Below are positions 13,021 through 60,978 of a stretch of 60,978 nt of DNA, piece after piece. The stretch is from Stentor roeselii. Taxonomy: Eukaryota > Ciliophora > Heterotrichea > Heterotrichida > Stentoridae. The translations under genes were made by a program, and so were the position numbers. The notes beneath the pieces were generated by a model. That model had not been told where the DNA came from, searched no databases, and saw nothing but the letters and a program-made list of their open reading frames with translations. How positions within the stretch are numbered: the first letter of the stretch is position 1; each line of letters starts with the position of its first letter. The stretch covers positions 1-60,978 of the forward strand of contig RSEH01000277.1 of assembly GCA_006503475.1 (NCBI GenBank), given 5' to 3'.

Positions 13021-13243
13021 TTATTGGCTCAGAATAGAATAGTTCCAAATGGAATATAGGGAGGTTTTAGAATTTTAGGGTAGATGGGAGAATGTGAGAA
13101 AGGATTTATTTTTGGAAGAATTGATAGAGGATCATGATAATTTTTTTGTATTTTAGAGTTTTTGTGATTGTATGGGTGTATATAGTTGGGTTGAAGGATA
13201 ATCATGTAAAATATACAATAAAGACTTGCTAATACTAAATAAA

Positions 13244-19102: not shown

Positions 19103-19256
19103 TTTAGTCATGGTTTCAACCATTAAAATGGGTTTAATTAGGATGATTAAGAATCTAATCAACTTCAGAAAATTAGAAATTTTGCTTGTTTAAATTGAAT
19201 TTAAGAACGAATTTTGAAAGGGTAGAGAAATTCAATAAATGAAAGGGTTTAGGTAA

Positions 19257-20183: not shown

Positions 20184-20187
20184 GTAA

Positions 20188-20919: not shown

Positions 20920-20937
20920 ATCCAAATCTTAACTAAA

Positions 20938-21636
20938 CTAGCACTTAAAGGCAGGTTTACCATTATTTTCCTGAGCCTTTTCAAATGGCATGGTCATATA
21001 CCCATGTCTGGCAGCAGCGTCATACATATGAGAAAAAATTCCAGTTTTCCTATAAAACACTCTCGGTTCGGCACTAAGCGCTTTAGTATAATCCTCATTG
21101 AAGTTCGGGTTAAAAGGTCTATTCAAGTCAGCAAACTGAGTAATCCCTTTATTCCTTCCAGCTTGAATATTAGTAGTTTTCCTAATAACCGCATGTGGGT
21201 TATCATTGAAATTGATGATATTATAAGCAGTGCTTTGACAGTTGCTTAAAGTGAACTTCGACCGAGGCGCGACCCACCCTTCTTTAGTCGTCGTCGACTT
21301 GGTGTACACCGGGGCAGGGGGTGGTCCCTGAATGGTGTGAGTCGGGGCTTGGAAGGAGATGTGGTCGGTCGGGATCTCATAAGGCACAGGTTCTTTCATC
21401 GGCTTCTCCACTGCGATCTTCTTCGTGCAGCCCACCGGGATCTGGCCTTTCCTCGACTCTAGATCATCAACTCTTTTAACCGTATCTCTGTGAATATCGA
21501 TGTTTGTCACCACGTCTTTCTTTAAAAACTCGATAAAAGCGCCTTTCGGGTCGATACCTGTCCCGAATTCTTTCAAAGCTCCGAAGCGGTTCGCTGTTTT
21601 CTTGATTCCTGTTCCGTGATGGTCTCGTCTTGCCAT
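20938..21636 (-). CDS. Hypothetical protein, possibly ciliary, 232 aa
   Basis: Unrecognised. It is basic, rich in Pro, Thr, Asn and Tyr, with little predicted regular structure and no membrane segment. Features: a start MARRDHHGTG, a Pro-rich middle (TIQGPPPAPVYTKS) and a C-terminal part with NRPFNPNFNEDY and HMYDAAARHGYM. Such extended, aromatic-rich basic proteins are often microtubule inner proteins of cilia, but that is an inference from style only. It ends at TAG 18 bp from the convergent EEP gene; its start is 35 bp from the Rpn2 stop. Confidence 0.75.
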   Translation of the reverse strand: MARRDHHGTGIKKTANRFGALKEFGTGIDPKGAFIEFLKKDVVTNIDIHRDTVKRVDDLESRKGQIPVGCTKKIAVEKPMKEPVPYEIPTDHISFQAPTHTIQGPPPAPVYTKSTTTKEGWVAPRSKFTLSNCQSTAYNIINFNDNPHAVIRKTTNIQAGRNKGITQFADLNRPFNPNFNEDYTKALSAEPRVFYRKTGIFSHMYDAAARHGYMTMPFEKAQENNGKPAFKC

Positions 21637-21671
21637 AGTTTATTTGAATAGAATTCAAAGTTTTCATTATT

Positions 21672-24440
21672 CTAACTAAAACCTCTTTTTTGCACTTCTG
21701 GGTCGAATTCGAACTCTTCTGGAATTTCTGTTTCGATCTCGAATGACTGCATTTTTATGTCTTTGCTTTCTGATTCTCGTAGTACTATGAAACCTGAAGT
21801 CTTGGCAACCACTGGGGCGAACTTGCTGTCAGGGAGAAAGCGAATGAATTTGGCTTGTGAGGGGAGAACTCGTGAAGGGTTTTTAAGGACTTCTTCGTTG
21901 GGTTCTTCTTTGACTTCTTTTTTCTCTTCAACATTTTCCCCTTTTTCTCCTTTTTCTCCTTTTTCCCCTTTCACCTCATCAACATCCATTGTTTTTTCAG
22001 GTTTCTTTGCAGCAGCTCTGGCTTTCGCCTTATTCGTCGTACTAAGCACTGCAGAGGCCGTTTTTCCTCCTTTTTCATTGCTAGGCGGTTCAAGTTTCGG
22101 CGGATAAGCAAAAAGACTAGGCTTGGCAGTACTGACAAACTGAAAGCTATTAACAAGTGCCAAATTTTTATCAATTCCTGCCAAACAAGTCGGTTTAAAA
22201 GCAAGCGAAATCATATGCAACATAGGAAACCAGTACCAAAACTGCAATCCAAGAACAATGCCGACAGTAGCAGGTGCCCTGTTATTCCCACTCGACGAGT
22301 CAAGACTAATCGTAACATTTCTTCCTCCAGCATCTAAAATGCCGAGTCCAACAATGGCTCCCATTTTCGTTAAAATATCCTGATTTTTCTCAGTCATCAC
22401 TTTTTCAATTCTTTCACGAAACTTTTCCACCCTGGGGCAAGACTGTTTGTTGCTCTGGACTAAAACCATGGCAGTTGCTACAAAAGCTGCTTGACGAACG
22501 AAGTTCGTCGAGTCTGACAAAAGCGTTTCTAAAATGGCCAAAGCCTCAGGAAGCGGGTTCCCTGCGCAGGCAATGCCGATGGCCATGGCTGAGCCTTGTC
22601 TGACGTAAGGATTGTAACTTTCTGACAATAAAGCCACGATTCGAGGGACCTGGTCAGGTAATCTGCATAAAACAAAGCCGATCGCTGTGACTGCTGCTTT
22701 ACGAACATCGTAATCCACGTCGCTTACAGCGAGATGTAAAAGATTTTTAATGATTTTTGTGTTGGCGGTGCCGATGTAGGCCGTGGCGATGGTATAAACG
22801 CCTCCATATCTTAAAATCGCGTCTTTTTCTGTGAGTAGCTGCGTGATTAGAGTATCAGCTTCTTCTTCTCTTTTATACATGATCAGTGCTAAAGCGATTC
22901 CTAAACCTCTGATGATTTTTTCGTGCTGGGTCTCGTGTGCGATGTTTAAAATGTCAGTGATCGCTGTTTCATTTGCAGAGCCTAACATGACCATTCCGAT
23001 CCCATAAGCGGCAGCTTCTCCAGAGTTGGCCTTGTCGTTAAAAATCACATTTTTGAACTTTTCGTAAAGCTCCAAACTTCCAGTGCCAAGCGCAGTGAGT
23101 CCAAGTCCAAGGCAGGCCCCGTGTTGGATGGGTTCTGAATTCGGGTTTAAAAGCAAGGTCCTGTCAAGCAAGTTCAAAATTTCTGGTTTCGCGTAGTTCG
23201 TGTGGATCAGCCCCAGGGCGAAGAGTGACCCGCCCTCCGCGTATTGGTTCGAACTAGAAGAAGCAGTCTGCTCTGGAGGCATATACGGCTTTAAGATCTC
23301 AATCGCCTTCGCCAGGTTTCCCTTGTGAATCACTCCTAAACAACCTACTGCACTGAACTTTCCCCAGTTTGTCGCTTTTGCCACCCAGCTTAAATTTTCT
23401 CTTAAAAACGAGTCGTCAGCTGTTCCCGCACACATGAAAGAATTAGCGAAAATCACTGAACCGTGAGTCACAGAAGCTTTTGAATCCACTGAAGTCTTGA
23501 TTTTGTTTATCAGTTGTTTGTCAGTGTTGCTTTTTGACTGGAGAAAGTTTAAAGTCAAGTCAATGTTCACCAGTCCTCCTAAGATTTTCAGAACGTTTGT
23601 CTTTTCTACGCTGGTTTCTGGGTTTTTACTGAGAAAAGTACTGACATGGTTCAGAAAAGTCTGCTTCTGGTTATCGACCAGGTCCAGACAAAGCTGATAT
23701 GCGAGTAAAGCGTCGGTTTTAACGATTTCTTGAAGAAGCATGGCGAGGGCTTCTGGGTCGTCAATGAGGAACTTGTACTCAGAGACACTGACAAAGTCGA
23801 GATGTTGTTGACTCATGTGTAGTTTGACCAGAGTGACGAGAATTTCATGTTTAAGCTCTTTGGGTAAGACAATTTGCTTGACAACGTCATAAGTGTACTT
23901 CAACAGGCCGGAGTCCCCTGACCTCACAATCGCTTCTTCAAGTTTGTCAAGTCTTCGAGCTTCGATGGCAATGCCGATGGCTTCTCGGAACTCGCGGTTG
24001 TTGTAGCACTTTTCAAACATCTGCTCAACAACGTAGATCATCCTTGGGGGGATCTCGACTCGGTCCTCAGGAAGACGAGCTGAATAGTTTTGGACTTGCT
24101 TGCTGATGTACTCGCTTATGCAATGAGACACTAAGGTTCGGACGTAGTCTGAATTGTCGAAAATGTTGAATTTTTCACCTGATTCTAATGCGAGGGTCAG
24201 TGCTTCTTTGTAGTTTTCAAGGTGATAGTGAACTAGTGAAGATAGGAAAGCCGCGTCTTTCTGGTGACTAAAGGAATGATCGATACCTAGGTTCTGGATT
24301 TGCTCCAGGATTGAAGCGATTTCGTGCCAGGAATAGTCGACTACTTCGATTAGCTTTACAAGCGCAAAGGCTTTTATTTCGAGGTCTTTGTGGTTGAATT
24401 GACTGAGTAAACCACGCGCACTTGAACACACCACCGCCAT
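21672..24440 (-). CDS. 26S proteasome regulatory subunit Rpn2 (PSMD1)
   Basis: Large non-ATPase scaffold of the 19S proteasome base. The 922 residues compare well with animal and yeast Rpn2 (about 945-953). N-terminal helical repeats (1 to about 370) are followed by the proteasome/cyclosome toroid with glycine-rich repeats such as GLGLTALGTGS, YGIGMVMLGSAN and GLGIALALIM up to about 770. A charged linker then carries three GEK tandem repeats (KGEKGEKGEKGE), and the conserved C-terminal segment contains NPSRVLP and KFIRF. No intron is seen. The start context is TATAAATGGC. An array of ~100-bp repeats containing telomere-like units lies immediately upstream of this start and may influence its expression. 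Confidence 0.97.
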   Translation of the reverse strand: MAVVCSSARGLLSQFNHKDLEIKAFALVKLIEVVDYSWHEIASILEQIQNLGIDHSFSHQKDAAFLSSLVHYHLENYKEALTLALESGEKFNIFDNSDYVRTLVSHCISEYISKQVQNYSARLPEDRVEIPPRMIYVVEQMFEKCYNNREFREAIGIAIEARRLDKLEEAIVRSGDSGLLKYTYDVVKQIVLPKELKHEILVTLVKLHMSQQHLDFVSVSEYKFLIDDPEALAMLLQEIVKTDALLAYQLCLDLVDNQKQTFLNHVSTFLSKNPETSVEKTNVLKILGGLVNIDLTLNFLQSKSNTDKQLINKIKTSVDSKASVTHGSVIFANSFMCAGTADDSFLRENLSWVAKATNWGKFSAVGCLGVIHKGNLAKAIEILKPYMPPEQTASSSSNQYAEGGSLFALGLIHTNYAKPEILNLLDRTLLLNPNSEPIQHGACLGLGLTALGTGSLELYEKFKNVIFNDKANSGEAAAYGIGMVMLGSANETAITDILNIAHETQHEKIIRGLGIALALIMYKREEEADTLITQLLTEKDAILRYGGVYTIATAYIGTANTKIIKNLLHLAVSDVDYDVRKAAVTAIGFVLCRLPDQVPRIVALLSESYNPYVRQGSAMAIGIACAGNPLPEALAILETLLSDSTNFVRQAAFVATAMVLVQSNKQSCPRVEKFRERIEKVMTEKNQDILTKMGAIVGLGILDAGGRNVTISLDSSSGNNRAPATVGIVLGLQFWYWFPMLHMISLAFKPTCLAGIDKNLALVNSFQFVSTAKPSLFAYPPKLEPPSNEKGGKTASAVLSTTNKAKARAAAKKPEKTMDVDEVKGEKGEKGEKGENVEEKKEVKEEPNEEVLKNPSRVLPSQAKFIRFLPDSKFAPVVAKTSGFIVLRESESKDIKMQSFEIETEIPEEFEFDPEVQKRGFS

Positions 24441-24446
24441 TTATAA

Positions 24447-24845
24447 GACTGATGAAGGTGGATTTGAAGAGGATTAACACCCTGGGACTTATGAGAACTT
24501 CGAGTTTTTCAACTGTTTCTCAAGACGACCACTGCTATTATAGACAGATGAAGGTGAAGATAATTAACACCCTAACACCCTGGGTATTATGGAAACTTCG
24601 ATTTTTTCGAATGTTTCTCAAGATAATCACACCACCGTCAATATAGACAGATGAAGGTGAATAGAATTAACACCCTAACACCCTGGGTATTATGAAAACC
24701 TTGAGTTTTTCAACTGTTTCTCAAGACGACCACTGCCATTATAGTCAGATGAAGGTGAATAGAATTAACACCCTGGATCTTATGAAAACCTCGAGTTTTC
24801 GACTATTCCTCAAAAAATATTGTGCAGTACTCAACCTTCTTCATC
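24447..24845. repeat. Four ~100-bp tandem repeats with telomere-like CCCTAACA units
   Basis: GATGAAGGTG blocks begin at 24451, 24547, 24650 and 24748 (periods 96, 103 and 98). Each is followed by a TTAACACCCT element, a (C/T)TATGxxAAC run, a TTCAACTGTTTCTCAAGACG-type segment and a CCACYGYCATTATAG segment. In the two middle units the core is AACACCCTAACACCCTGGG (24566-24584 and 24669-24687), two telomere-type units. The outer units have only one. The array fills the gap between the 14-3-3 stop and the Rpn2 start. Confidence 0.9.
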
Positions 24846-24877: not shown

Positions 24878-25624
24878 TTAACTATCAGCTGGTTCTCCTG
24901 AACTCCACAAAGTCAAGTTATCCTTGAGCAACTGCAGAATAAGCGTTGAGTCCTTATAGTTCTCCTCTGAAATATTATCCAGTTCAGGAATTGCTTCATC
25001 AAAAGCGCTTTTCGCCATGACACAAGCCCTGTCCTGTTCAGCCCTAATCTCATAATAAAAGACTGAAAAGTTAAGAGCAAGGCCCAGTCGAGTGGGGTGC
25101 GTCGGGGGCAGCTCGTTTTTCGCCAGGTCGTAGGCAGTGGTGTAGCTCGTCTCCGCATTGTTCGTCGCGTTTGACTTCTGCGGACCTTGCGCGAATTCTG
25201 AGATGTAGCGGAAATAGTCCCCTTTCATTTTGTGGTAAAAGACTCGTGACTCCGAACTCGCTGCTTTAGGCACCAGGTCTCGGTCGATAAGGGCTAAGAC
25301 GTCGTTGCAGTAGTTGAGAAGCTCTTGTTCCACTTCTTTCTTGTAGGTTGAGGCTGAGGACTTGTTAGTGGTGTTGCTTCGACGATCTTCTTTTTGCTCG
25401 ATCGAGTTTAGAACTCGCCAGGAAGTCCTTCTAGAACCTACTAGGTTCTTGTAAGCCACTGATAGGATGTTTCGCTCTTCGACTGATAAATCTTGAGGAG
25501 TCTTTGATACGAAATTTTTGACATACTCAATCATTTCTGGGTATCGTTCAGTTTGCTCACATAACCTAGCTAGGTAGATAAGTTCTTCACGTTCCAGAGC
25601 TTCAGGGTTGCTGATATTCTTCAT
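24878..25624 (-). CDS. 14-3-3 protein, 248 aa
   Basis: Dimeric phosphoserine/phosphothreonine-binding adaptor. It has the family signatures NILSVAYKNLVGSRRTSWR near residue 45 and, near the C-terminus, the LNFSVFYYEI helix and TLILQLLKDNLTLW. The binding-groove basic residues (SRR in the first signature) and the tail NLTLWSS are conserved, so ligand binding is expected. The length is standard for the family and the acidic tail is short. The start context is ATATAAATGAA. It sits between the anoctamin gene (divergent, 5' to 5', about 180 bp between the chosen starts) and the telomere-like repeat array. Confidence 0.98.
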   Translation of the reverse strand: MKNISNPEALEREELIYLARLCEQTERYPEMIEYVKNFVSKTPQDLSVEERNILSVAYKNLVGSRRTSWRVLNSIEQKEDRRSNTTNKSSASTYKKEVEQELLNYCNDVLALIDRDLVPKAASSESRVFYHKMKGDYFRYISEFAQGPQKSNATNNAETSYTTAYDLAKNELPPTHPTRLGLALNFSVFYYEIRAEQDRACVMAKSAFDEAIPELDNISEENYKDSTLILQLLKDNLTLWSSGEPADS

Positions 25625-25804
25625 TTATATTATGGGAATAAGCGGCAATTTAGATGACTTAAAGAGAAAAGTTAAGAAAATCTAGAAAAGTATTAAAATG
25701 CAAGAACTTGAATAGCTATGAAAAGATATTCTTGTCCTTTATTTTACTCATTTTATTTAATTCATGATTGCAATCTTCTAAATATTACTGAATCTTATAA
25801 TCTA

Positions 25805-28800
25805 ATGGAACTTAGTCCAGATTCAATAAATGATTCGTTTAGAATTGGCTCTCCCGATTCAAAAGTAGTGAAACTTCCTCCAATAAAGAAGACTTCTTCT
25901 ATCATCAGTCCGGGTAAAGACGAAGAAAAAGATGCTTTAAATCAAAAAAACGACTTACAACAAGATTCAGATGAACATAAGGCTACAGATGATAAAAAAG
26001 ATTCAGATGAAAAAAAAGAATCAGAAAAAGAACAACCTCCTCCTAAAGCTGCAGAAACTATTAACAAAAGCCGATCCATAAGACACAAAAAGACTGAAAG
26101 TGGTGAAAGAAGCTTAGTCCCATATCATGAGGAGTCAAAAGATCTAAGTCAGATGTTAAACGACGCTTCAATCACCGGAGTCACTCACCTAAAAGACCTA
26201 TTCCTTGGTAACTTCCCAGAGAGCTCAGGAAAGTCAAAAGTGATAATCAACGAAGCAGTCTGGGACTACGTGATAGTTGTTCACAACCCCGATTTCGACC
26301 CAGACGACCAAAAGTCAGTAAAACCTGAAGAAGCCGAGCAATTTTACAAGAACTCCTTCCGAGCGAAAAAACAAGTAAGTGCCCATCAACAGACAATCGG
26401 CTTTCAAAACGAAATTCTTGCCTTTACCGACGCCTTTAAAGAACTGGAAGATTTACCTCCAGGGAAAAAATATAAAAACGGCGGAACTTACGAAAAATTT
26501 GAAAACGGGTTTAAAAGACTCCAAATGAAACCAAAGGACTTTATAGGTCTTTGCAACAACACGATTTTAGTAAAGCTAGTCTCTCATCTGACTTTAAAAG
26601 TGAAAAATTTGATTTCCACTGATGGGCGGTACTTATTTTTCATAATTTCAGCAGATGAGGAAGACCTAGAAACAGAAGCTGAAAGGATTCGATATCGAAA
26701 AGAACTGGAATTAGCTGTCACGGACGTTATTTCAATGTTTCCCTGTGATGACTCTTTAAGACCTTTTCACATGCTCAAGTGTGAAGTCCCTGAAGTCTCC
26801 TTAAAAGAGCCAGGTCTCCAAGAAGAGATGCAGAAATGTCAGGCAGAAATCAAAGAAACAATGAAATCCGTCAAAAAATTCGTCTCCCGCGCATTGTCCT
26901 TAGCGAAAAACACTGAAAGAATCAGCTACAAGTACACCCCGAAAGGAGTCACCCTTGCCCAGTGGCAGGCTTATAAAGTTTACCTCGGACTCTTAAAGGA
27001 CGGTCTTCCAAGAATTGAAAACGAAATAAAAGAACATAAAAATCAGATGCTTCTTTTCAAGGCTCTTCTGAAAAACTCGCTTTGTAAAGTTAACACTGGC
27101 CTTCCTAAAGGACAGAAACTTAGAACTCTTTGGGATCGGCTTGGGTTTGATGGCATGTTTGCACCTTTTGCGGAATATCGACGAGCTGGAAAGCAGGATG
27201 AGTTGAATTCGCTTTGGCGCACTCATGAAATTGACCCTTCTGGAAAGAGGTCTTTGTTTAAGAATATTGAAAGGATTCGTCTTCTCACTTCTTATATTTA
27301 TACTCAGATTAATTTGAATTCTTTGATTGAAGCTGATGTTATTGTTGCACATTTTCCTTTGCATAACTCTTGGATGTTGCTTGGGACTCAGATTAGAATT
27401 GTTAAAAATACGAATGAAGAAGAGATTAATATGAAACTTATATCGACTGAAATTAAACAGAATGATACGAATAGAAACACCTTAGGTCAAAACTGGAAAA
27501 CAAGTATAATAAACCAAAAAATTCCCTTAAGTCGAATCCGTAACTACTTCGGTGAAAAGCTCGCTCTTTACTTTGAATTTTTAAAATGCTTTCAAGTAAG
27601 TCTCGTGCTGCCATCAATAATAGGACTAATAGTTTTTACCTTGCAACAAGTCTACAGTGTGAGTCATCCCGTAGTCCTAACAGCGAACGCGTTATTTTGT
27701 GTCTTCATCACAGTCTACGCAACAATATTCCTAGAGTACTGGAAACGTCGAGAGTCAGGTTTATCAGTGATGTGGGGCACAACCGAATACGAAAAACTCG
27801 AAATTGCACGGCCTCAGTTCAAAGGAGACCTGAGACGATCTCCAATAACAGACGACATGGAAGAAGTCTTTTATCCAGAAAGAAGCCGTTTCAAGTACTT
27901 CATCTTATCAGCCATTTTCTCCATCGGGATAATCTGCATCATTATCGCAATAGTAGCAGGACTTATCATTTTAAAAGGTAAGGACTACATGATTTCAAAT
28001 GGTTATAACTATGCCGATGCGGTTTGTTCAGTGATAAATGCGATACAAATCCAGGTTTTCAATATAATTTATTCAAAAGTAGTGAAAATCTTGACGAACC
28101 TTGAAAATCATAAAACTCAAAATCACTATGAAGACTCTTTAGTTGTGAAAACTTTTCTTTTTCAGTTTGTGAATTCTTTTAACTCTTTGATTTATATTGC
28201 GTTTATCAGGTGCAATGTTAACAATTTAGATGAACAGATTTGTGTTGATGAGCTCAGCACGCAACTTATTTCGATATTTTTAGTTAGTTATGGAAAGAAT
28301 ATTATTGAACTTGGATATCCTTATGGAACGTTTGTGTTTAAGAGATGGAGAAAAACGAGGAAACAGGTTGTTGATAGTGAATATGAAGAAGGGGACTTGA
28401 GAAGTGATATTGAAAGTCAGTTAATGCAGGAGGATTATGTGACGCTTGAGAATGATGGGACTATTGATGACTTTTTGGAACTTGCTATTCAGTTTGGATA
28501 TATTACTTTGTTTTCAATTGCTTTTCCACTTTCGACGACTATGCTATTTATTGGATTGTGGCTTGAAATGCATGTTGATAAACTCAAATTGCTTAAATTG
28601 GTGAGAAGACCTATACCGATGCCTACTAAGGATATTGGAACTTGGTATGATATCTTTTCTCTTATTTGTACCTTGTCAATTGTATCAAATTCAGCATTAT
28701 TCTGTTTCACCCTTCCAACATTCCAGGACTGGTCAGAAGCATTCGACAACCGTTACCTAATATTTGCAGTAGTTGTCGCCTTTCTGTTCATTTTCCGTTC

Positions 28801-28966
28801 ACAGCTGATGAGTTGGATTCCAGACGTGGAGCAGAAATACGAGATAATCCAGAGAAGACACGAGTTTATCGTAGAGAAGTACTTAAGAGGTGCTCCTAAC
28901 CACAAACAAGTGGATGACGTGGAAATGTTTGACACTTGTCTTTATTATGGAAAAGATTCTAAATAA
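25805..28966 (+). CDS. Anoctamin (TMEM16) family membrane protein
   Basis: Ca-activated lipid scramblase or ion channel family. I take the ATG at 25805 (MELSPDSIND); an upstream in-frame ATG at 25718 would add a 29-residue hydrophobic-looking leader unlike the family. An N-terminal disordered acidic/basic stretch (about 1-120) is followed by the cytosolic anoctamin dimerisation domain and ten membrane helices from about residue 620. The calcium-site acidic residues of the family appear conserved: KNIIELGYP, DFLELAIQFGYITLF and LEMHVDKLKLL, followed by the PIPMPTKDIGTWY loop. The protein has about 1,053 residues. Whether it scrambles lipids or conducts ions cannot be told. There is no intron of the 15-nt type in this long frame. 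Confidence 0.93.
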   Translation: MELSPDSINDSFRIGSPDSKVVKLPPIKKTSSIISPGKDEEKDALNQKNDLQQDSDEHKATDDKKDSDEKKESEKEQPPPKAAETINKSRSIRHKKTESGERSLVPYHEESKDLSQMLNDASITGVTHLKDLFLGNFPESSGKSKVIINEAVWDYVIVVHNPDFDPDDQKSVKPEEAEQFYKNSFRAKKQVSAHQQTIGFQNEILAFTDAFKELEDLPPGKKYKNGGTYEKFENGFKRLQMKPKDFIGLCNNTILVKLVSHLTLKVKNLISTDGRYLFFIISADEEDLETEAERIRYRKELELAVTDVISMFPCDDSLRPFHMLKCEVPEVSLKEPGLQEEMQKCQAEIKETMKSVKKFVSRALSLAKNTERISYKYTPKGVTLAQWQAYKVYLGLLKDGLPRIENEIKEHKNQMLLFKALLKNSLCKVNTGLPKGQKLRTLWDRLGFDGMFAPFAEYRRAGKQDELNSLWRTHEIDPSGKRSLFKNIERIRLLTSYIYTQINLNSLIEADVIVAHFPLHNSWMLLGTQIRIVKNTNEEEINMKLISTEIKQNDTNRNTLGQNWKTSIINQKIPLSRIRNYFGEKLALYFEFLKCFQVSLVLPSIIGLIVFTLQQVYSVSHPVVLTANALFCVFITVYATIFLEYWKRRESGLSVMWGTTEYEKLEIARPQFKGDLRRSPITDDMEEVFYPERSRFKYFILSAIFSIGIICIIIAIVAGLIILKGKDYMISNGYNYADAVCSVINAIQIQVFNIIYSKVVKILTNLENHKTQNHYEDSLVVKTFLFQFVNSFNSLIYIAFIRCNVNNLDEQICVDELSTQLISIFLVSYGKNIIELGYPYGTFVFKRWRKTRKQVVDSEYEEGDLRSDIESQLMQEDYVTLENDGTIDDFLELAIQFGYITLFSIAFPLSTTMLFIGLWLEMHVDKLKLLKLVRRPIPMPTKDIGTWYDIFSLICTLSIVSNSALFCFTLPTFQDWSEAFDNRYLIFAVVVAFLFIFRSQLMSWIPDVEQKYEIIQRRHEFIVEKYLRGAPNHKQVDDVEMFDTCLYYGKDSK

Positions 28967-31123: not shown

Positions 31124-32296
31124 TTAACTATGACTTGGTGCTGATTGGACGTAGTTCAAAGCATTTCTATGAAGAATATCGTCTAATTTTCCAATCATCC
31201 TCTGAAAAGCTTTTCTGTTGAGACTAACACATTTCAACTCACTTGTTGCAATGATGCTAGCTGCCCTGTTTTCCCCTTTCAAAATTGCGATTTCTCCGAA
31301 GTAATCTCCAGGGAAATACTCTTTAACCTGCACTTCAGGTCCTCCAGTGTAAAATCGTTTCTTGGCAATGGCAGTTCCAGAGACAATTAAATAAAAAACG
31401 TCTCCCCAGTCACCTTGTTTGATGACATATTCATCTTTCTCATAATTAGCAGACTTCAAAGCATCAGCGATTTGAGCGCGTTCATAAGGGTCAAGGCTTT
31501 TCAAGACTTTTACATTTCCTAGAAATTCTTCATATTTTTCACGTTTTTTCATTGCAGCGTCTTTCACAATATAGTTAAAAGTGCCTCGGTCGAGTACCCA
31601 TAACTTGCAAAGAGTCTTACAAGTGATCGTCGCTGCTCGAGGCGCATTATACAAAAGAGCCAATTCCCCAAAAGCCTCTCCAGAATGATAAACTTTTAAA
31701 CTCCTCGCTTCAGAAGCACCTTCAAAAACTTTAGTACATTCAAGTTTCCCTGAGTCAACAACATACAACTCATTTCCTTCTTCTCCTTGTCTAATAACGA
31801 CTTCTCCCTCTTGAAATTCCTTCTCATCCATTGCATCAATTACGATATTTTTTTCATGTTCTTCTAAAACTGAAAACATAAAAGACTTGCTGAGTCTTTC
31901 ATGAATTCTCGTCTTTTGACTGTCACTTTTCGCGATCACTCGAGGGTGGAAGTCTTCTCGTTTGTTGTGAGCTCCAAAGGCTTCTGCGCTAACTGACGTC
32001 CGATGTGTTGACAGTCGAGACTTCGCTGGCATGGGAAGTTCATCGACTTCATCATCATCACTGTCAGAGGAGCTGCTGGTTTCTTTGCCTTTTGAGTGAT
32101 TTTTAACGAAAGACCTTAAAGACAAGAGTTCTTCATGTTCTGACTCAGAAAGAACCAGGCCAAGGGCCTGGTTGAGAGATTCGAGGAAGTACTCGGGGAG
32201 GTTGTCAGGTTGATCGATGAGAGCTTTGGAAGTGAATTGTTTTAAAAAGCTGTCTAAGCGGGCCATGTAGTTTTTATGATCTTTTCCTGAAGACAT
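31124..32296 (-). CDS. cAMP-dependent protein kinase regulatory subunit, 390 aa
   Basis: Contains two cyclic-nucleotide-binding domains with phosphate-binding cassettes FGELALLYNAPRAATI (209-224) and FGEIAILKGENRAASI (333-348). Both keep the Glu and Arg that hold cAMP or cGMP, so both sites should bind. The inhibitor region is RLSTHRTSVSAE with Ser101 as a substrate-type site (RTSV). It lacks the second upstream Arg of the usual RRxS, which may weaken inhibition. The N-terminal ~50 residues are helical and could dimerise. It starts with a TATAAATGTC context only five bases from the divergent start of the next gene. The fold and length fit PKA-R; a cGMP-dependent variant cannot be excluded. 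Confidence 0.95.
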   Translation of the reverse strand: MSSGKDHKNYMARLDSFLKQFTSKALIDQPDNLPEYFLESLNQALGLVLSESEHEELLSLRSFVKNHSKGKETSSSSDSDDDEVDELPMPAKSRLSTHRTSVSAEAFGAHNKREDFHPRVIAKSDSQKTRIHERLSKSFMFSVLEEHEKNIVIDAMDEKEFQEGEVVIRQGEEGNELYVVDSGKLECTKVFEGASEARSLKVYHSGEAFGELALLYNAPRAATITCKTLCKLWVLDRGTFNYIVKDAAMKKREKYEEFLGNVKVLKSLDPYERAQIADALKSANYEKDEYVIKQGDWGDVFYLIVSGTAIAKKRFYTGGPEVQVKEYFPGDYFGEIAILKGENRAASIIATSELKCVSLNRKAFQRMIGKLDDILHRNALNYVQSAPSHS

Positions 32297-43148: not shown

Positions 43149-44213
43149 ATGAACTCTTTCACAGAGGAGCCGAAATTTTCACTGAATCCATCCAAACCTT
43201 CTTCAGAATATGAAGATTCTCTGACTTCTAAACTCGATAAAGTCCTTCACACGTCAGATGAAGTAGACGGTTCTCAACTAGTTAACCCTTCACATGACCC
43301 TACTGAAATTAAAGAAGTGACTTCGAAGCCTGAAGAAGGAAGACAAAAATTTAACAGTAATAATTACATAGAAAGAAAAAGTGCAGGAAGTTATGCAAGT
43401 CTTGGAACAGTCATCAGGCACGAAACTCCAAACATTAAACTAAAACCTCATTTCAAAAGACAAGGAAGTAAAGGACTACGAGTGTCTTCAAGCCGGAACT
43501 CTTATCTAGAAAAAGAAATCTGGCAGTTTTTCAAGAAAATCATAAAAAAAAACCCAGAATTCAAACAAGTCGTAACAAAAGATAAAGACTTTGAAGACTT
43601 CTTTCAAAAAAAATTCTCTGAATTTGAAGAAATGCTTCAAGTTAACCTAAATTCCAGTCTTTCTTTAAAAAATTCGAAAATTTCTTCAAAAAATCAAGAA
43701 AAATCAAGAAAAAGTGAAAAAATTCAAAATAAGTTGCAAGATGAAGAACTTTCAAGAGTAAAAAAATCATTTAAAAAGTTTGAAAATAACTGCAAAGCAC
43801 GTTTGAAGCAGGTGATCGACTCTAACTTGAAAAAGTACCAAATTCTTAAAAATGTTGAAGATATTCGAGCAGAAAATGAAAAAACAGCGCGTGTTCGTGA
43901 ACAGAGACAAACAATCATCGAGAATATTCGAAATTATTACAATGATAAGATCAGGCTCTTTAAAGATAAACTTAATGAAAGAAAAACATCGAAAGCACTT
44001 CTTAACTTTGAACAAAAAGTCGTGTTTTCTGAAGCTCGAAGAGAAAGATTTAGAGAGTCGAAAGTTAGACATGAAAAAAGTCTTGAAAATATTTATCAAA
44101 AGGTGCAAAAAATGAAACTTGAAATGGAAGATGAGACTCTTTCTATACAGGCGAAGATTCTGAAGTTGTATAAAAACTCGGCTAAGTCTATTAAAAGTTG
44201 TAATTTTCGATAA
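43149..44213 (+). CDS. Coiled-coil protein, 354 aa, with repeat-derived C-terminus
   Basis: Residues 1-110 are polar and disordered; about 120-340 form a strongly charged coiled coil (KKSFKKFENNCKARLKQV and MLQVNLNSSLSLKNSK regions). The last residues come from the first unit of a 39-bp tandem repeat that continues past the stop into the gap. Function unknown. Start context ATTTAAAATG; stop TAA. Confidence 0.7.
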   Translation: MNSFTEEPKFSLNPSKPSSEYEDSLTSKLDKVLHTSDEVDGSQLVNPSHDPTEIKEVTSKPEEGRQKFNSNNYIERKSAGSYASLGTVIRHETPNIKLKPHFKRQGSKGLRVSSSRNSYLEKEIWQFFKKIIKKNPEFKQVVTKDKDFEDFFQKKFSEFEEMLQVNLNSSLSLKNSKISSKNQEKSRKSEKIQNKLQDEELSRVKKSFKKFENNCKARLKQVIDSNLKKYQILKNVEDIRAENEKTARVREQRQTIIENIRNYYNDKIRLFKDKLNERKTSKALLNFEQKVVFSEARRERFRESKVRHEKSLENIYQKVQKMKLEMEDETLSIQAKILKLYKNSAKSIKSCNFR

Positions 44214-44441
44214 AAATCTGATGGGTGTATTAAAAGTTGGAATTTTTGATAAAAATCTGATGAGTGTATTAAACGTTTTAATTTTTGATAAAAACTTTAT
44301 CAAAGTTTAATTTTTATAAAAATTCTACCAAGTCTAATAAAAGTGTAATATTCAATAAAAACTTTACCAAATGTATAAAAAGTATACTTTTCAATAAAAA
44401 CTTTACCAAGTATATTAATGTTGTAATTTTCGATAAACATC
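44203..44441. repeat. 39-bp tandem repeat array at gene boundary
   Basis: Units begin at 44203, 44242, 44281, 44310, 44348, 44387 and 44426 (periods 39, 39, 29, 38, 39, 39). Each starts ATTTTTGATAAAAA or a variant, then CTTTACCAAGT, then TATTAAAAGTTGTA. The array begins inside the 3' end of the coiled-coil gene and ends a few bases before the ATG of the B-box gene. Thirteen codons per unit keep the frame, suggesting the array grew from the gene's own C-terminal codons. Confidence 0.88.
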
Positions 44442-52233: not shown

Positions 52234-55200
52234 ATGATTCTTTTCATCTTGATTCTCTATCTACAGCATGCTTCATCAAGCCACATGAAGTCAGTCTGTC
52301 ATTTAACCTACAGTTCCGTCCCTTTAATCAGCTGTCCTTATTCCTTCACTAGAATCAATACCTCCTGCAATCTTCACTCCGAACAAACCATCTTCTCCAT
52401 CAACTTTAAAAAACTCACCAAAATTCCTAATTTCCGAAATATCGACCTATTCTCAACACTACTAAAAAAAAACCTTCATCAAAGTGACCCGAACAGTCTT
52501 CCGATCCCAACAGTCGACAGAGGTCTTTACTTCGAAAAATCCACTAAAATCATTTCCGAGCGAAAATTGACCCCGGCTCCAGACCTTTCACTTGATTTGA
52601 TTCTGAAAGTTTACGAAGAAGGCGACATCCTCACATTCGGAAGTGAATCAAAAGTTTTAAAGATTTTAATAAAAGACTCAAAAATCGTGTTTTTGTTGAA
52701 GTGCAGTTGTTTGGACTTAACTAGTCAATATGAAGTGAGTTTCAATTTAGAAAAATGGGTTTTTGTTGAGATAAGATTGAGACTAGAGGAAAAGTTTAGC
52801 TTTTTAGAGATCATGGGGCAGAAGTTCAGTCTTGGAAGAAGCTACTTGACTGGAGATTTTGAAGATTTCTGGGAAATTGGAGGATTTCGAGGGTTTTTTG
52901 GGTATTTATCGGTGATTAACAAGGTAATTGGGAGGAATGAGGTCGTTTTCAAGAGTAATGACTGTGATCCTTATGAGTTTTATGAGCCAATCACAAAGGT
53001 TTGTGTAAAAAGTGAAGAAAGATGCAAGTCTTTCAGTCTTCCTCAATGTTCATTTAACCTGCTTGGTTGTTCACAGTCATCAGGGTTCTTAGACAGTGAT
53101 TGTATTTTATGTAAAAATCTAAAAAATTACCCTCATTGTGGATGCGGGTCTAGATGTTTAGAATGCTTCAACCAGATCTCAACTCAATGCGAAAAATGTC
53201 TCCCAGAGTACTTAAAACTTAACAATTTATGCATTTTACCTTTTTACAACTGGAGATTTCCAAGTGAATCTCAAGAATTTTTATTCGATTTCAGCAGAAA
53301 TTTAGAAATAAACGGATTTTTAAGAAAAAGTGAAAAAAAAGTTTTTATTGTAGATCAGAAGTGGTCAAGAGGAGTATTTTTTGATGGGTCTTGGAATTTG
53401 ATATCTTTTGGATATTCTCTTGCTCATAGAAACCTGCTTGTGCTTTGGTTTTTTCCTTTAAATACCGGGTGTCTCCTCTGCAGTCCTCACCTAACAATCT
53501 ATGCAAACGGGTTCTTCGAACTAGTCACCTCGAATGACTTTTCAAGTCTCAGTCATCATAACCAAAAACTATTTTTTCACCTTGAATGGACTTTACTTCA
53601 ACTAAGGCTTGATTATGACCAGGGAAGAACTGAAGTGAGGACTAGTTTTAATGGAAAAGAATTTGAAGTCCTTTCTTTTGAATTTGCTTTGATTGATTTA
53701 AAAGGACTTACAGGGATTGCAGGTCGAGATTTTGAGAGATTTGAAGGATTTGAAGGATTTGAAGGATTTTTTTATAAAATGATGCATTTTTGGAACCAAG
53801 ATCCAAGAGTTTATTTTTATCATGAAGAATTTAAAAGAGAAAGCAAATTTCTTGATATTAAAGGAAAAGTTTCCAGGACTTTACTTGGATTTTCTAAATG
53901 CTATCAAGATCCTTTAAGTAACCAGACAGATCTTTGCGGATGCTGGAATTCAACAAATGAAACTCTTTTAGTAATCGACGAGTGCTGTACAACGATTTGT
54001 CCAACAGGCTTCGAGTTGAATTCAAACAACTCCTGTATTTTAATATCAGAAGAAATAGCAAATTTTCTGTTTACTTCTTTCAACACTTCAACTTTTCCAG
54101 ACTCTAAAAGCCAATTATCTTTTTTTGTATCAACCCCTGGGCAGGTCTACCCAACCATATCTCCATTTCGAGGTATTTACTTCTATAAGAACACTTTAGC
54201 AAATATCTCAGAATTGATACTTTCCTACAATTATTCAATAAGTCTTTGGATCAACATAAAGACATCAGGAACGATTTTTTCTTTCAAGAACATTTCTTTA
54301 GTCTCTACTTCGAGTTCATTGAAGATGTCAACTGATGAGACAGTCATTTATCTCGATTTTAATCCTTTCACTTGGGTTCAAGTCATTCTAAGCAGAATAA
54401 AAAATACTTGGAACCAAACAGAATATTCTCTTAAAAATAATGAAAATTTCATTTCTTTTAATTCAAGTTCAGAACTTTGTGAATTTTCAGAGATTGTCTT
54501 GAACCTTGGAGATATTTTTTCTAATCTTTCAGGATTTTCAGGTTTTATCTACAGACTTTCAATAAATCTTTTTGCAAGTAATAGTGAACATTATTATTTT
54601 CTTGAGACCTGTGCTGTAAATCAATATTATTTTAACAGTAGTTGTTTTCAATGCAAGTCAAACTGCCTAACATGTGCTTATCGAGACACTTGCAACGTTT
54701 GTAGTAGTCTTGCATGTAAAAGCTGCTTTAATACAACGACTTGTAAAGACTGCATCGAAAATGCATTACTTGAAAATGGGACTTGCCGATGTTTTTCTCC
54801 TTTTTCTTTAATTCAGAATGTGACAGGAGAAGCAGTTTGTTCCATGTTAAGAACTCAAAACAACTGCTTATCATCAAATATTTCTTTCGAATTTTCATTA
54901 AATCTCGACATTCCCAGTAGTTTTTACACAAATGGAAGCCTTTCAATGAAGACAAATGATTTGACAAAATGCATCAATTCTCCTTTTCGAGGTGTTTACT
55001 TTAAAGATGGGTGTCTTTTGACTTCCAGCAAAATTCTTATTGATCAACCTTTCCTAATTTCACTTTGGCTGAAAATAGAAAAGGAAGGAGGGATTTTAGC
55101 CATTCAGGACTTTCTTATATTGATAAAAAACGCAAGTATTTCAGATAAAGCTGAACTTTTACCATATACAACTGGAAAAAGCTACCCTTGGCAGGTCTTA

Positions 55201-58200
55201 ACTATTGAGAATAGAATGGAAAGTACGAATTTCGTTTCAGTTATTTTAAAAGACGTAAATGGAATAAAAAATGAGTTTTTATTTCTTAGAGACTGTCTTC
55301 AAATCGAAGGGTTTTTAATGTTAGGCTCTTTTCATTGGGCTTTTCAAGGGTTTAACGGGTTTATCTGGAAGATTAAAGGACAAGAATATATTTTTAATTC
55401 AAGTCAAGATATTATTTTTTGTGATAGTTTGATTATTGAAAATTGCATTTGGAACGTATCATTAAATGAATACTTTTTCAACGGGACTGCTTTTAAATGT
55501 AACTTAGCTTGCACGACTTGTAGAAGAGAAAGTTCTTGTGGAATATGTAATAATGATGCTTGCTCAGTTTGCAGTAGTTCTTATAGTGTTTGTGATAGTT
55601 GTATTTCAAATGCGTATTTTAATGATTCAGCTTGTTTTTGTAATGATCGTTTTGTCTTGGTTAGTAAATTCAATGCGGCTTCTACTTGTAAGGAACTTGG
55701 GTATTGTACTAGTGACCCTGGACAGAAGAAGATTGATAGTTGTTGTTATTCAGTTTGCCCGAGTCAGTTTGTAGATTATAATGGGAACTGCACTCAGGCT
55801 TCTGATATGTTTGTGCATATATCTGGGAATGAATTAATTGAAACATATTTTAAAGATCAGTTTAATAATGATATCTGGATTTATAGTCCTCCTTATACCA
55901 TCAAGCAGAGAGGGTATTATTTTCCTCATAATTATTATATTCATTTGGTTAATGAGATTGTTACTTCTCATTCGTACATGTTTCATTTTTGGATTAAGAT
56001 TTTAAATCCATTAACCACCCTATTAGACTTATCATACCTGTCCATATCTTTAAGTAAAAGTGCAACTTCAGTATCAATAAATGATGTTAAAACAGATTTT
56101 AACGTAATGCACTACGACTGGAGCATTTTGATATTCAAAAGATATACAATAGGAAATCAAGGGTATTTTTCAATTCAATATTATCCTCACTCTTTAGTTT
56201 ATAAAGCGGAAGAACCAACATTTTGTAATTTTGAACGAGGAATAATCAATATTTACGGAAATTCGATGTTTTTAAGAAGATTTCAAGCTTTTAACCGAAT
56301 TTTCGATTTGGAATCAAACCCAATAAAAATCTGCTCAGCTACCCTGATGAATGACGATTGTATTATTGACTGCTCTGAAAATAATTATTTTAATGAAAGT
56401 TGTTCAACTTGCTTGGGAAATTGCTCAAGAGGGTGTGTTAATGGATACAATTGCAACCTTTGTTTTAATCCTCTTTGCATTGATTGTTCTACTTTTACGG
56501 ACTGTCTTAAATGTGACTCAAATTCAACAATGATTAACGGGTCCTGCAAATGTCAGGGAAAATTTTACCTTGATCAACAAAATAATGGAAAAATTCAGTG
56601 TCTTGGATGCAACCCATTTTGCAATAATTGTGCCGGGCCACTCCCTTGTGACTGCAATGAAACAAACAGCACTGGAAAATTCAATGTTATTCATTGTTGT
56701 AGTAAATATTGCCCTACAGGGTTTGAGATCAACGGAAGTACCTGCAGCCGAAAAAATAATCTAGCTGCAAATTTTTCCTTTGACACTAAGAATCTTGTAT
56801 ACTTTGATAGTTCAAATCAAATAATTATTCAAAATGCAGTTCAAGCCCAAGGAAGAGGAGTTTTCTTTCGGGTAGACTCTTATGGAAAAAGCTCAAACTT
56901 CATTTTTCATTACGAACTTTCATTGATTTTTCTAATAAAAGTAGAAAAAGATGGAAATATTATCGGATTTGGAAGATTTTTACTACTATCAAACAATACC
57001 TTGTTGTTTTTAAATGATAACAAGAGTTCAGACCTAAGTGCAAGTTTTAACTACGATGAATGGTTTTATCTTAGCATCCAGAAAGACATGTCTTTCACTT
57101 TAAGTACAATTTTCTTGACAGTAAACAATTTCCAATCAAAAAAATCCTCAGAAGTCTTCTGCGATATTTTCGAAGACTTTCTAAACCTTGGCAGTAATTC
57201 TTCAAGTTTTCAAGGATTTCTTTACACTTTCCAACTTTTTACCATTTTACAAGACCTCTTCTTATCAACCTGTTCAAATCAATCAAACTGTAACTTACCT
57301 TCTTGCACAATAACTGAAACCTTGATCAACTCAACCTGTTATCCTTGCCTTTCTGAATGTGAATCATGCATTTCAACAGTAACCTGCAGTCTTTGTTCAA
57401 ATTCTCTTTGTGAGTCTTGCCAAAACTACTCTTTTTGTGATGTTTGCACGAAAAACTCTAGTTTTAATGAAAGTTTGAAGAGTTGTGAATGTGATGAGTT
57501 GTTTTTTGAAGAAAAAGTGAATAAAACGCATTCAAGATGTGAGAAATGCAGCAGGTTTTGTGGAGGGTCTTGCTTTGGACCACTTCCTTGTGACTGTAAT
57601 GGTGAAAGTGGAGTCAATGTTGAAGACTGTTGCTCTAGTTCTTGCCCTGATGGGTTTTTTAATGATTGAGGGAAATGTTTTAGGGAAAGATTTAAAGTTG
57701 TTGATGTGGTTTTCAAGAATTTTACATGGAATTCAGATATTTTTAAAAATGAGTTTTGGATGAATAGTACTCCAGCTTATCAAAGAGGACATTATTTTGA
57801 TAAAGGTTCGAATGCTAGGAATTTTAAAGATGTTGTTTTGAATTATCAAGCAACTTTAGATATTTGGATCAAAGTAACTGGAGATGGGAAAATTTTTAGG
57901 TTAGATCAAGTTGATTTAGGGTACTATAGCGGAAATTTTGTTGTTAGTTATGACAATCACACTGTTATTCATCAAAATTCAATAAATATCTGGACTTGCC
58001 TAAAGATGCAGTTTATAATTCAAAACAATTTCCTAGTAATTTCAGTATCCAACCTAATCACTCAATACTGGTCCAACCAAGCAACAACCAAAACCTGCAA
58101 TTTCCTAAAAGGTTCCATCCTTCTCGGAGAAACCCAAGATTCATTCACAGGATTTCTCTGGAAACTAACTTTATTCAACTCTCCAGAAAACCTTTTCTCA

Positions 58201-60978
58201 ACTCTCGATTCCTATTTTCTCAGTGATTGTGAAATCAACTATTTTCAGGATGGTTCATCATGCAAACCATGCCCAATCCCCTGCAAATCATGCAGAAGTA
58301 GCCAAAACTGCAATCAATGTTCATCTCTTTCTTGCACCTTCTGCGAAAATCACGAAACCTGTGAAAATTGCGACAATTCTTCAATAAAACAAAATTCAAA
58401 ATGCATCTGTGCATCAGGTTTTACATCAAAAAGTCTTGAAACCCAAGAATTTTGTGATCTTTGTGAAAAAAAATGCAATATTTGCAGTTCTTCTGATTTT
58501 TGTCTTGAATGTAAAGCTGGTTGGGAAGTTTTTAAAGGAAAATGCGTTTGTCGAAATGGACAATTTTTGAATGGTTCTGGTATTTGTCAGAATTGTTCAG
58601 AAAAATGTTTGACTTGCGCAGGTCAAGAGTTTTGGGAATGTCTTTCTTGTGATGAAAAAGTTTTAATTGATGGGATTTGTCTTGAGATGTGCCCTTTGAG
58701 TTTTAAAAATGTGAGTTTTCGATGTGAAATTATTAGAAATGAAGTGGTTTATTATGATTTCTTGAAGATTCTTGGAGTTTATTATGATGAGGTTTATGGA
58801 GTGCCTATGGGTACTGGAGTTTCAAAGGGATTTAAGGGGGATCAGGGTGGGAATTATCCTATTCCTGTGAAAAATCGAGGAATTTATTTTTTTGAGAAGA
58901 GTTTTGTGAGTTTTCCTTATGAGTACTCAGATTTTTTGTTACTTTCTGATAACTTCGTGATTGAAATGTGGCTTTTTCCAGAGAATCAAGGGGTTTTTTT
59001 ATCAGAATCTTTAGGTTTTCTTAAACTTGAACTAAAAGAATCAGTTTTGATGTCAATTATGATAAACAACAAGATTTCTATTTTTCAGTCATTTATTTCA
59101 ATTAAATATAATCATTGGAATCATTTGATGATTATTGTTAAGTTCTTTAAATTTACAAGTTTATCAACTTTGATTAATCTTGAAAAATCGGATTTTTTCA
59201 CTGTTGAAGAACCTTTTGTTCAAAAAATCAACTCTTTCTTAGTTTTTCCGACTAATGAACTGGAAAAAAATAGATTTACAGGGTTTTTGTTTACTTTGAA
59301 AATTTCTGTTTTTTTCAGTGATTTTATTTTGCCGATTAAATGTAATGAATGCGGAGTTTGTTTAAATGATGGAAGTTGTTTAAGTCCTTGCCTTTGGAAT
59401 CAAACTCTTGAATGTGAAAATTGTTTAGAGAGTTGTGTTAATGGATGTGTTTTTAATGATTCTTGTATTTTATGTGCTGATCAGAATTGCTTGAAATGCA
59501 CGGATTTTGAAACATTTGAGTGTCTTGAATGCAACTTTCCGTTTATTATAGTTGAAGGGAAGTGTGTCAGGAATACATTCAGTGCAACTCTTTCTGTTTT
59601 AATGAACAATAGTTTATTATTAAAGTTTTCTGAAGAACTTTTAACACCAGTAGAAAACTGTTCAGTAGAAGTTTTTTTCAATCAAAAGGAAATTAAATAC
59701 TCTTTAAAGAAAATCAATGATCAAGAATTTCTTATTTCTCCAAAACTTAAAAAGAATTTTATAGAAAAAAGCAGAATCCAAGTTAAAATTAAAGAAAAAT
59801 GTGAATCAAAAAAGTTGAATATTTTTGACCAAAATGAACTTTCAGCCAGTTTATTTCCACCTGAAAACATTGAAGATTTACCACTATCAAATCACCAGTC
59901 TTTAGTAATATATTCTTCAGCTTTAACACTTACCTCAACTACAGCATCTTCTTTATTTAGTGGAAATCCATCATCTTTCTTCACATTTTTATCAGTAATC
60001 GAGATGTACAACTACATTCCATTGCTTGAAACTAATATTTCAATGCAATTAATAGATATGCTGAGCACTTTAAACATCGACTCTATGATTCCTAATGTTT
60101 TTGATAAAATCACAGAATTGTATCCAGATGAGCAGGTTGAGAAAAGATTTGAGCTTTTTGGAATGAAAAATCACTTCTTTTTAGTTAACTCTGGTATATA
60201 TATAATGACTCTGGCTTTTGGGGCTGCTCTTTATCTTATCGCGTTTGTGGTTTCTTTTATACCTGTTCAATTTATTAAAGATAAAGCATCATCCTTTTTA
60301 AGTTCATTTCGATATTCATACTTACTAAGAATGGTCATTCAATCATATCTTGACATTTTGATTTTTTCATTAATCACTCTGACTTATTCAAAACCTTCCG
60401 ATACATTCAAATACTTTGACTTGATTATAAGTGGTATTTCATTACTAATTATCATTTTTTCTTCTCTCTTAATAATTTTCATTCAGCTTTTCAGATCAGA
60501 AAGACTTCAAAACGAGGTAGTTTATAATAAAAAGTTCTATTCAATTACAGAAGGCTTTATAAAAAATAATGGACCAAGTATTTATTATTTGCTATACTTT
60601 TTTAGAAGATTAGTCTTTGCCCTAAGTTTAATATTCATTACAGACAGATTTCTCCAGGTTATAATAATTTTTACAGCATCTTGTCTGGTAATTTTTATTT
60701 AGATTCCTTTTTATCTTTTTTATTCAAATGTTTTCGAGTCGCAAAGTCTTAGATGGTTTGTTATTTTTAATGATATTTTGTTTTGTGTGTTTCTTGGGTT
60801 GATTTCTATCGACTTTATTGATAACAAGCCTTTAATGTCTGCGAATGTTAAGAATTACTGTATTAATATTATCTTGGTTTCATCATTTTCTGGTGTCGTT
60901 CTCTCTTTTTTTGATATTGGATACAAAGTCATACAAAAGATTAGAAACCTTTGCAAGAAAAATAATAGGGTTTTACCC
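52234..60978 (+). CDS. Giant cysteine-rich, LamG-like multi-module membrane protein, 3' end outside window
   Basis: Join 52234-60687 and 60703 to beyond the window; at least 2,910 residues. A signal peptide (MILFILILYLQHASSS) is followed by eight modules. Each module is a LamG/concanavalin-like beta-sandwich beginning with RG(I/V/L)YF (starts near 52518, 53370, 54166, 54984, 55907, 56854, 57781, 58876) and, with variation, a Cys-rich block of CxxC units of the furin-like or ciliate surface type. A region from about 59580 without Cys then leads to a multi-pass membrane part (helices from 60190 on: about six visible), so the C-terminus is a membrane anchor or channel-like domain. TGA at 57667-57669 reads as Trp in CPDGFFND-W-GKC, matching CPTGF..N...C of other modules. 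Likely a large surface receptor or adhesion protein. Confidence 0.85.
57667..57669 (+). other. In-frame TGA codon read as Trp (or nonsense mutation)
   Basis: The surrounding text is CCSSSCPDGFFND then TGA then GKCFR. Parallel module ends are ICPTGFELNSNNSC, VCPSQFVDYNGNC and YCPTGFEINGSTC: the Cys spacing is identical only if TGA is one sense codon. No 15-nt intron can be drawn here. Confidence 0.7.
60688..60702 (+). other. 15-nt intron in giant gene
   Basis: GTAATTTTTATTTAG, phase 0, containing the in-frame TAG that otherwise ends the frame. Joined exons read SCLV-then-IPFYLFY after losing the intron, a continuous membrane helix with 92 further open codons to the window end. Confidence 0.9.

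Follow-up and report, generated by a model that had tools for sequence, protein, structure and literature searches.

A question of scale and layout

What kind of protein does a ciliate obtain by stringing eight lectin-like modules on one chain and closing that chain with a bundle of hydrophobic helices? The question is raised by a gene at positions 52234-60978 (+) of a contig of the heterotrich Stentor roeselii (RSEH01000277.1, C204 among our contigs), the whole 60,978 bases of which make up the window considered here, in a genome of 44.4 Mb and 522 contigs. The gene belongs to a big family, of which it is an enlarged form, and combines a known fold with a membrane end touching a known family. 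By sequence comparison, that family is made up of many paralogs, taken here as putative surface receptors of heterotrichs, for which an adhesive, possibly mechanosensory, receptor-channel function is put forward tentatively, as possible rather than probable. In the literature, as covered by the titles and abstract openings of open-licence papers, no described family of this kind was found.

One gene from a signal-peptide-like start to the contig end

The frame starts with the ATG at 52234 (+) and, with translation table 4, remains open over 2818 codons to 60687, its single in-frame TGA (codon 1812, 57667-57669) being decoded as Trp. A 15-nt GT...AG intron in phase 0 (GTAATTTTTATTTAG, 60688-60702 (+)) excises the only TAG of the frame, and exon 2 is open from 60703 to the contig end at 60978, giving a window protein of at least 2910 amino acids (aa) in which no stop is reached. 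Since the open frame is continuous, the modules are read as one unit. Two other gene models were rejected, namely two separate genes, because the gap at 57669-57706 between the open reading frames (ORFs) called with table 11 corresponds to one TGA read as Trp, and a stop at 60700-60702, because this triplet lies inside the intron, an intron being removed from the corresponding position in 13 of 29 paralog loci. Altogether, the conserved intron places are two, near tail residues 296 and 380 and in phase 0 throughout, the second being spliced in 14 of 30 loci when the window's own is counted.

Regarding the missing 3' end, splicing leads to a stop in 24 of the 29 paralog loci, 484-545 aa after the tail query begins, as against 471 aa of tail in the window, so that only a short cytosolic end is probably lacking and the contig, judged against the paralogs, probably terminates within the last cytosolic tail. 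Upon splicing of the paralogs, four tails (L023, L024, L030 and L032) stop early and the end of L029 is odd; these five were excluded from the tail profile and from the hydropathy average, for which 25 of 30 tails were kept.

At the other end, the start codon opens a signal-peptide-like hydrophobic N-terminus (MILFILILYLQHASSS, 52234-52290 (+)), judged by eye, in agreement with the signal peptide that an initial sequence-only reading of this DNA had proposed. Across the genome, tandem CCCTAACA, searched as two units, is matched exactly 271 times in forward and 389 times in reverse orientation, the reversed control not once. In Blepharisma stoltei, UGA encodes Trp, introns are mostly of 15 and 16 bp, telomere repeats are CCCTAACA and the genome measures 41 Mbp (PMC9942806). 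The TGA read as Trp, the 15-nt intron and the telomeres found here agree with that description and speak for the heterotrich origin previously presumed.

LamG-like modules and cysteine-rich spacers

Eight copies of the motif RGx[YF]F are found in the window protein (at aa 96, 379, 646, 919, 1226, 1541, 1851 and 2215), whereas 2000 shuffles average 0.046 copies and never exceed 2. For CxxC, the count is 42, the shuffled sequences averaging 10.1 and reaching 23 at most. Scored with a leave-one-out profile built from the other seven, all eight modules stand above all of their 500 shuffles each (19.2-61.1 bits, the shuffles reaching at most 12.3), modules 1, 2, 5 and 8 scoring below the remaining ones, and the columns R, G, F, W, F and F are invariant. 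By motif count and leave-one-out scoring, the eight pairs of module and Cys-rich block announced by the sequence-only reading are thus recovered; as for the regularity of their alternation, modules and CxxC spacers do alternate, but unevenly, the spacer after module 2 being as short as about 43 aa with the boundaries that we set.

On the forward strand, module 1 (52369-52989) is followed by Cys-rich spacer 1 (52990-53232), and module 2 (53233-53901), the most divergent (19.2 bits, best shuffle 8.7), by the short Cys-rich spacer 2 (53902-54030). A 9-bp direct repeat at 53738-53769 codes for an FEG-type run (RFEGFEGFEGF) in module 2, adjoining its conserved F.GF strand. Then come module 3 (54031-54609) with CxxC-rich spacer 3 (54610-54834) and module 4 (54835-55467) with CxxC-rich spacer 4 (55468-55764), as well as modules 5 (55765-56349) and 6 (56740-57318), both recognised by the leave-one-out profile, with CxxC-rich spacers 5 (56350-56739) and 6 (57319-57663). 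The start of module 7 (57664-58245) adjoins the in-frame TGA, and the spacer that follows (58246-58680), also CxxC-rich, is the longest and has a weak R-spondin-2 similarity (E 0.21-0.73). Module 8 (58681-59349), the membrane-proximal one, and CxxC-rich spacer 8 (59350-59559) complete the series.

The fold of these modules was approached through module 3, modelled jointly with its own Cys block using AlphaFold2 (AF2), the other seven modules serving as alignment rows. The model is all-beta and of moderate confidence (pLDDT 64, pTM 0.52), and Foldseek returned 44 matches to it at E<=0.001 (best E 1.1e-5), with agrin LamG at the top of a list that also contains neurexin LNS, legume lectins, pentraxins and lectin domains of sialidases. 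No Pfam match, Laminin_G_3 included, was obtained for the window protein at E<=1; NCBIfam gave no match, and a PDB profile search with the modules yielded one, at E 0.35, taken as chance. Laminin_G_3 does exceed its cut-off of 27.6 bits in the paralogs L041, L042 and L043 (27.8, 51.1 and 32.5 bits), and in all three, the whole set of ectodomain-bearing paralogs scanned for it, the best stretch falls within an RG module; genome-wide, this domain was detected at 117 places (134 candidates). A Tmpp129 match on L005 (E 0.044) was dismissed as chance. Model and sequence taken together, these results support a LamG-like, concanavalin-A-type beta-sandwich for the modules, the very fold that had been guessed for the RG-Y-F segments and that the structure prediction of one of them displays. 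The beta-sandwich is what they would have in common with Laminin_G_3/ConA-like domains (PF13385; agrin LG3, neurexin LNS), from which the window modules differ by their invariant R, G, F, W, F and F and by their alternation with CxxC blocks on one chain.

A seven-helix membrane end

Past the last spacer lies a membrane-proximal domain of about 105 aa (59563-59880 (+)), conserved in the paralogs and showing strands in a low-confidence model, then a weakly hydrophobic hairpin with a conserved FFxFLNxxE-type motif (59902-60036 (+)). The bundle proper begins with helices 1-4 and most of helix 5 at 60163-60687 (+), where an RR and a Q are conserved, and is resumed in exon 2 (60703-60978 (+)) by the rest of helix 5, helices 6 and 7 and the start of a basic cytosolic tail, which the end of the contig truncates. 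Seven hydrophobic peaks are present in the window protein past aa 2650, which accords with the bundle of at least six helices originally noticed; the hydropathy average over the 25 tails has six cores, one of which lies in a 57-residue stretch fitting two helices, preceded by the weak hairpin. An extra hydrophobic peak at aa 2350-2368, within module 8, is taken as a beta-strand of that module.

The placement of this protein in the membrane can be read from its composition. Before aa 2641 are found 168 of the 172 Cys and all 53 N-glycosylation sequons, a count above that of all 2000 shuffles (mean 35.1, maximum 52), and because of this distribution the modular part is predicted to be extracellular. 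Along the helices, the net charge averaged over the 25 tails amounts to +4.1 after helix 1 and falls to -0.6 after helix 2. It stands at +1.4 both in the segment from helix 3 to helix 5, which takes in helix 4, and behind helix 5, comes to -0.1 past helix 6 and rises to +4.9 past helix 7, values compatible with an N-out/C-in orientation. A topology of seven helices, N-out and C-in, with a basic tail and a glycosylatable, Cys-rich ectodomain is thus supported by the sequence.

A large paralogous family

When the tail was used as query, 108 of 108 scored places in the genome matched, with E at most 3.7e-15 (274 candidates), so that the family counts at least 108 tail places, that is at least 107 besides the window gene. 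The design, thought rare in the sequence-only reading, is so only in part, given this number of tail places and given that four modules are normal in the few members sampled. Five of the six other tail-bearing members sampled have four modules (L041, L042, L043, L113 and L114) and the sixth, L112, has one weak match, in a sample that is non-random since L041-L043 are the best tail matches and L112-L114 the longest open frames. Eight modules as the family norm were rejected on these counts, and the window gene is, for the same reason, probably an expanded variant.

In a tree of 36 modules, window module 8 falls together with the fourth module of L041-L043 (95/91), window module 1 with the first module of the same paralogs (87/75, under the starred level) and window module 4 with its neighbour, module 3 (96/85, with a long-branch warning). 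The simplest account starts from a four-module ancestor, the window gene having probably gained modules in its middle part; the tree, in which 16 of 33 inner branches are open, the bootstrap is unsettled and long-branch warnings occur, is too open for dating.

Regarding selection, the ratio of nonsynonymous to synonymous substitution rates (dN/dS) in two close pairs amounts to 0.26 and 0.16 in the ectodomain adjoining the tail and to 0.25 and 0.16 in the tail; of five pairs, these are the two in which dS stays under 1, hence unsaturated, for ectodomain and tail alike, whereas the rest gave 0.10-0.29 or no estimate. By these ratios, the two close pairs are under purifying selection. Across 45 pairs, identity has a median of 40 percent in the ectodomain and of 41 percent in the tail, which is the better conserved of the two in 30 pairs. 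This comparison draws on 28 of 30 loci (L011 and L029 dropped), on pairs with tail identity of at least 33 percent, a choice which favours the tail, and on the 500 aa of ectodomain adjoining it.

Family members are over-represented close to contig ends: within 15 kb of one lie 39 of 79 tail places, against 19.1 expected and a maximum of 34 in 20,000 random placements, for the 79 of 108 places that remain once 29 on contigs under 60 kb are dropped. By comparison, 3 of 33 kinase hits lie as near, these being hand-picked from 135 hits as those on contigs of known length. One member, L041, begins less than 2 kb from a telomere. Contig ends are here assembly ends, some of them with telomeres, and not proven chromosome ends; in Blepharisma, telomeres are added at many alternative sites (PMC9942806).

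Relatives of the membrane end

Outside the genome's own family, the tail leads indirectly to the fungal FLC/Pkd2 TRP family (PF06011). At E<=10, PF06011 was detected at 34 places genome-wide, four of which overlap scored tails (E 0.0019, 0.156, 0.459 and 1.28). The three best places, L101, L102 and L103 on contigs C254, C86 and C53, were marked over the cut-off of 28.5 bits in the six-frame search (30.7, 28.5 and 28.5 bits), where they cover positions 139-422, 139-401 and 152-366 of the 426 of the profile, and whole-protein scans gave E 1.4e-6 for L101 and 4.7e-6 for L103. In turn, the 25-tail profile finds L101-L103 at 4e-51, 1e-54 and 1.5e-70, as well as L106 (C64) at 3.1e-20, these E-values being drawn from a small set of six proteins and 306 reversed or shuffled decoys; it does not find the PF06011-matching L104 and L105 at E<=10, both of which are multi-pass and rich in Cys but of a different kind, L105 carrying DUF7630. 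A MethyltransfD12 match on one tail relative (E 9.5e-4) was dismissed as chance. As L101-L103 match both the tail profile and PF06011, the tail is likely, but not proven, to be distantly tied to the FLC/Pkd2 family through such intermediates, by a weak and indirect link.

The PF06011 domain is carried by Pkd2 of Schizosaccharomyces pombe itself. This protein is counted among the fungal FLC/TRP-like proteins (PMC8618638, PMC9600462), and is reported to be activated by membrane tension, with Ca2+ influx (PMC11277609). In the fungal proteins as in ours, an extracellular domain stands ahead of the bundle, here one that is conserved and has no Pfam match. For the window tail in particular, neither PF14558 (ML-like/TRP_N) nor PF02221 matched at E<=1, and one group of fungal FLC members is described as mostly devoid of the ML-like/TRP_N domain (PMC9600462). 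The giant lectin-like ectodomain sets the window protein apart, none being mentioned for fungal FLC members in the available portions of three papers (PMC9600462, PMC8618638, PMC11277609).

The polycystins proper were considered as well, the membrane part having been likened to theirs by the sequence-only reading. PKD_channel (PF08016) was detected at 123 places genome-wide at E<=10 (114 candidates). This is a large set for a 44-Mb genome, many of the places lying in one frame and possibly being repeats within a protein. Of these places, 20 share a contig with scored tails (hand-picked from the lists) and none overlaps a tail; besides, the window protein has no PKD_channel, REJ or GPS match at E<=1. 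A membrane end of PKD_channel type was accordingly rejected and a polycystin-like character in the strict sense is not supported for the window protein, the link to FLC/Pkd2 TRP proteins being nearer. The comparison does fit cousins in the same genome, where LamG modules are carried on REJ or GPS-like ends as in polycystin-1-like proteins: L099 (contig C106) combines five module matches with a polycystin-1-type end that has a REJ domain (E 1.4e-26), and L100 plus L111 (contig C335, about 6149-21817) make up a relative that is about 5162 aa long, contains 11 LamG modules and differs in its C-terminal part. There, the latter resembles polycystin-1-like proteins by several hydrophobic helices, by a match to the PKD domain that stays below the cut-off (E 3e-5) and by what we take to be a GPS-like Cys/Trp motif, judged by eye against the usual pattern. 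The tail profile finds neither L099 nor the relative on C335.

Receptor-channel, coat or something else

Were the protein an adhesive receptor-channel, the LamG modules would bind glycans or other surface ligands, be they on prey, on partner cells, on the substrate or on the cell's own coat, and the Cys spacers would form a long, disulphide-stiffened arm. The TRP-like bundle could then respond to ligand binding, or to tension exerted through the arm, with a cation (Ca2+) signal, and the many diverged members of the family would together cover a range of ligand specificities. The mechanosensitive channel step is drawn by analogy, following the precedent of S. pombe Pkd2 (PMC11277609).

Several observations count against a receptor-channel of this kind and hold it at the tentative level stated above. 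The window tail has no Pfam match at E<=1, the whole-protein PF06011 scores of L101 and L103 (27.9 and 26.1 bits) stay under the 28.5 cut-off, and L104 and L105 match PF06011 about as well (E 4.1e-6 and 4.7e-6) as do the relatives of the tails. On the structural side, the AF2 prediction of the membrane tail alone is unusable (pLDDT 44.9), a PDB profile search with the tails gave no hit, and a further structure search with the tail profile gave MscS-type matches only, too weak at E 0.51-0.91. Moreover, fungal Pkd2 is reported with nine helices and a lipid-binding domain (PMC11277609), as against seven helices and a weak hairpin here.

Among the other explanations, a surface coat survives best, though it is judged unlikely. 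In such a coat, the eight lectin-like modules would be protective or adhesive and the seven-helix end a mere anchor, with no signalling. Its repeated adhesive modules and a large paralogous family biased to contig ends would suit this role, as is the case for coat and antigen genes in other protists. An anchor, however, would hardly be expected to be as conserved as the adjoining ectodomain, as the medians of the 45 tail-selected pairs indicate, nor to show tail dN/dS values as low as those of the two close pairs, and the conserved polar residues of the bundle exceed the needs of anchorage.

The orientation found above, with the N-terminus out, seven helices and the C-terminus in, together with a giant LamG/Cys ectodomain and a membrane-proximal domain, also recalls a seven-helix G-protein-coupled receptor (GPCR) that would act like the animal adhesion GPCRs, and the PTX-like domain of human ADGRG4 is among the structural matches of module 3, at rank 26. 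The likeness to adhesion GPCRs is one of layout, a giant adhesive ectodomain on N-out seven helices, and not of sequence: no Pfam GPCR (7tm) or GPS/GAIN match is present in the window protein at E<=1, and several tail relatives match PF06011 instead, which leaves this receptor type decidedly unlikely.

A system of variant surface antigens with mutually exclusive expression is very unlikely. It would account for the number of copies, at least 108, for their bias to contig ends and for Cys-rich repeats, but not for the 500 aa of ectodomain adjoining the tail being no more divergent than the tails, for dN/dS of 0.16-0.26 across both parts of the two unsaturated pairs, or for a multi-pass end in place of a simple anchor; antigenic variation is not favoured because both ectodomain and tail are conserved. 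Finally, a secretory-organelle protein of extrusomes or pigment granules is the most improbable of all, since, although LamG membrane proteins do act in ciliate exocytosis, in mucocyst docking, Tetrahymena Mdl1p of the MDD complex, also a ciliate LamG membrane protein, is described with 346 aa, one LamG, one predicted helix and a place in the granule membrane (PMC9159632), a layout of which nothing but the LamG is common to the window protein.

Neighbouring genes and repeats

Upstream on the same contig, ten of the 37 ORFs listed for the window were scanned. An anoctamin-type protein is encoded at 25718-28966 (+) in a 1082-aa frame (PF04547, E 8.6e-109), an RPN2 proteasome subunit at 21672-24440 (-), a class II aminoacyl-tRNA synthetase at 11140-13020 (-), an ADP-ribosylglycohydrolase at 13244-14818 (-), a cyclic-nucleotide-binding protein at 31124-32296 (-) and a DUF3638/DUF3645 protein at 3404-4510 (+). 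The window also contains a 98-bp tandem repeat in three copies (24475-24774), on the 3' side of the ORF at 24878-25624, as well as arrays with a 39-bp unit at 44170-44437 and one with a 24-bp unit at 7566-7781.

Meaning for heterotrich biology

Touch, contraction, contact-mediated mating and feeding have classically been studied in heterotrichs such as Blepharisma and Stentor. Comprising at least 108 genes in which lectin-like arms are combined with a multi-pass, possibly TRP-like end, the family constitutes a candidate set for heterotrich touch, mating or feeding receptors, and the presence of one module on different membrane ends in a single genome offers a natural experiment on the coupling of arm to sensor. 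The receptors of gamone 1 are still called putative in PMC10892320. A bolder account, improbable as it stands, would see in this family more than 100 lectin-armed TRP-like receptor-channels with a bias to contig ends, the LamG-Cys arm of which, variable in length, would be gated upon glycan contact or pull. If true, this would be a heterotrich parallel to polycystin-1/2 and to adhesion GPCRs, with one module on at least two membrane ends, and its members could include the receptor of gamone 1, a mating glycoprotein, or the touch receptors of heterotrichs.

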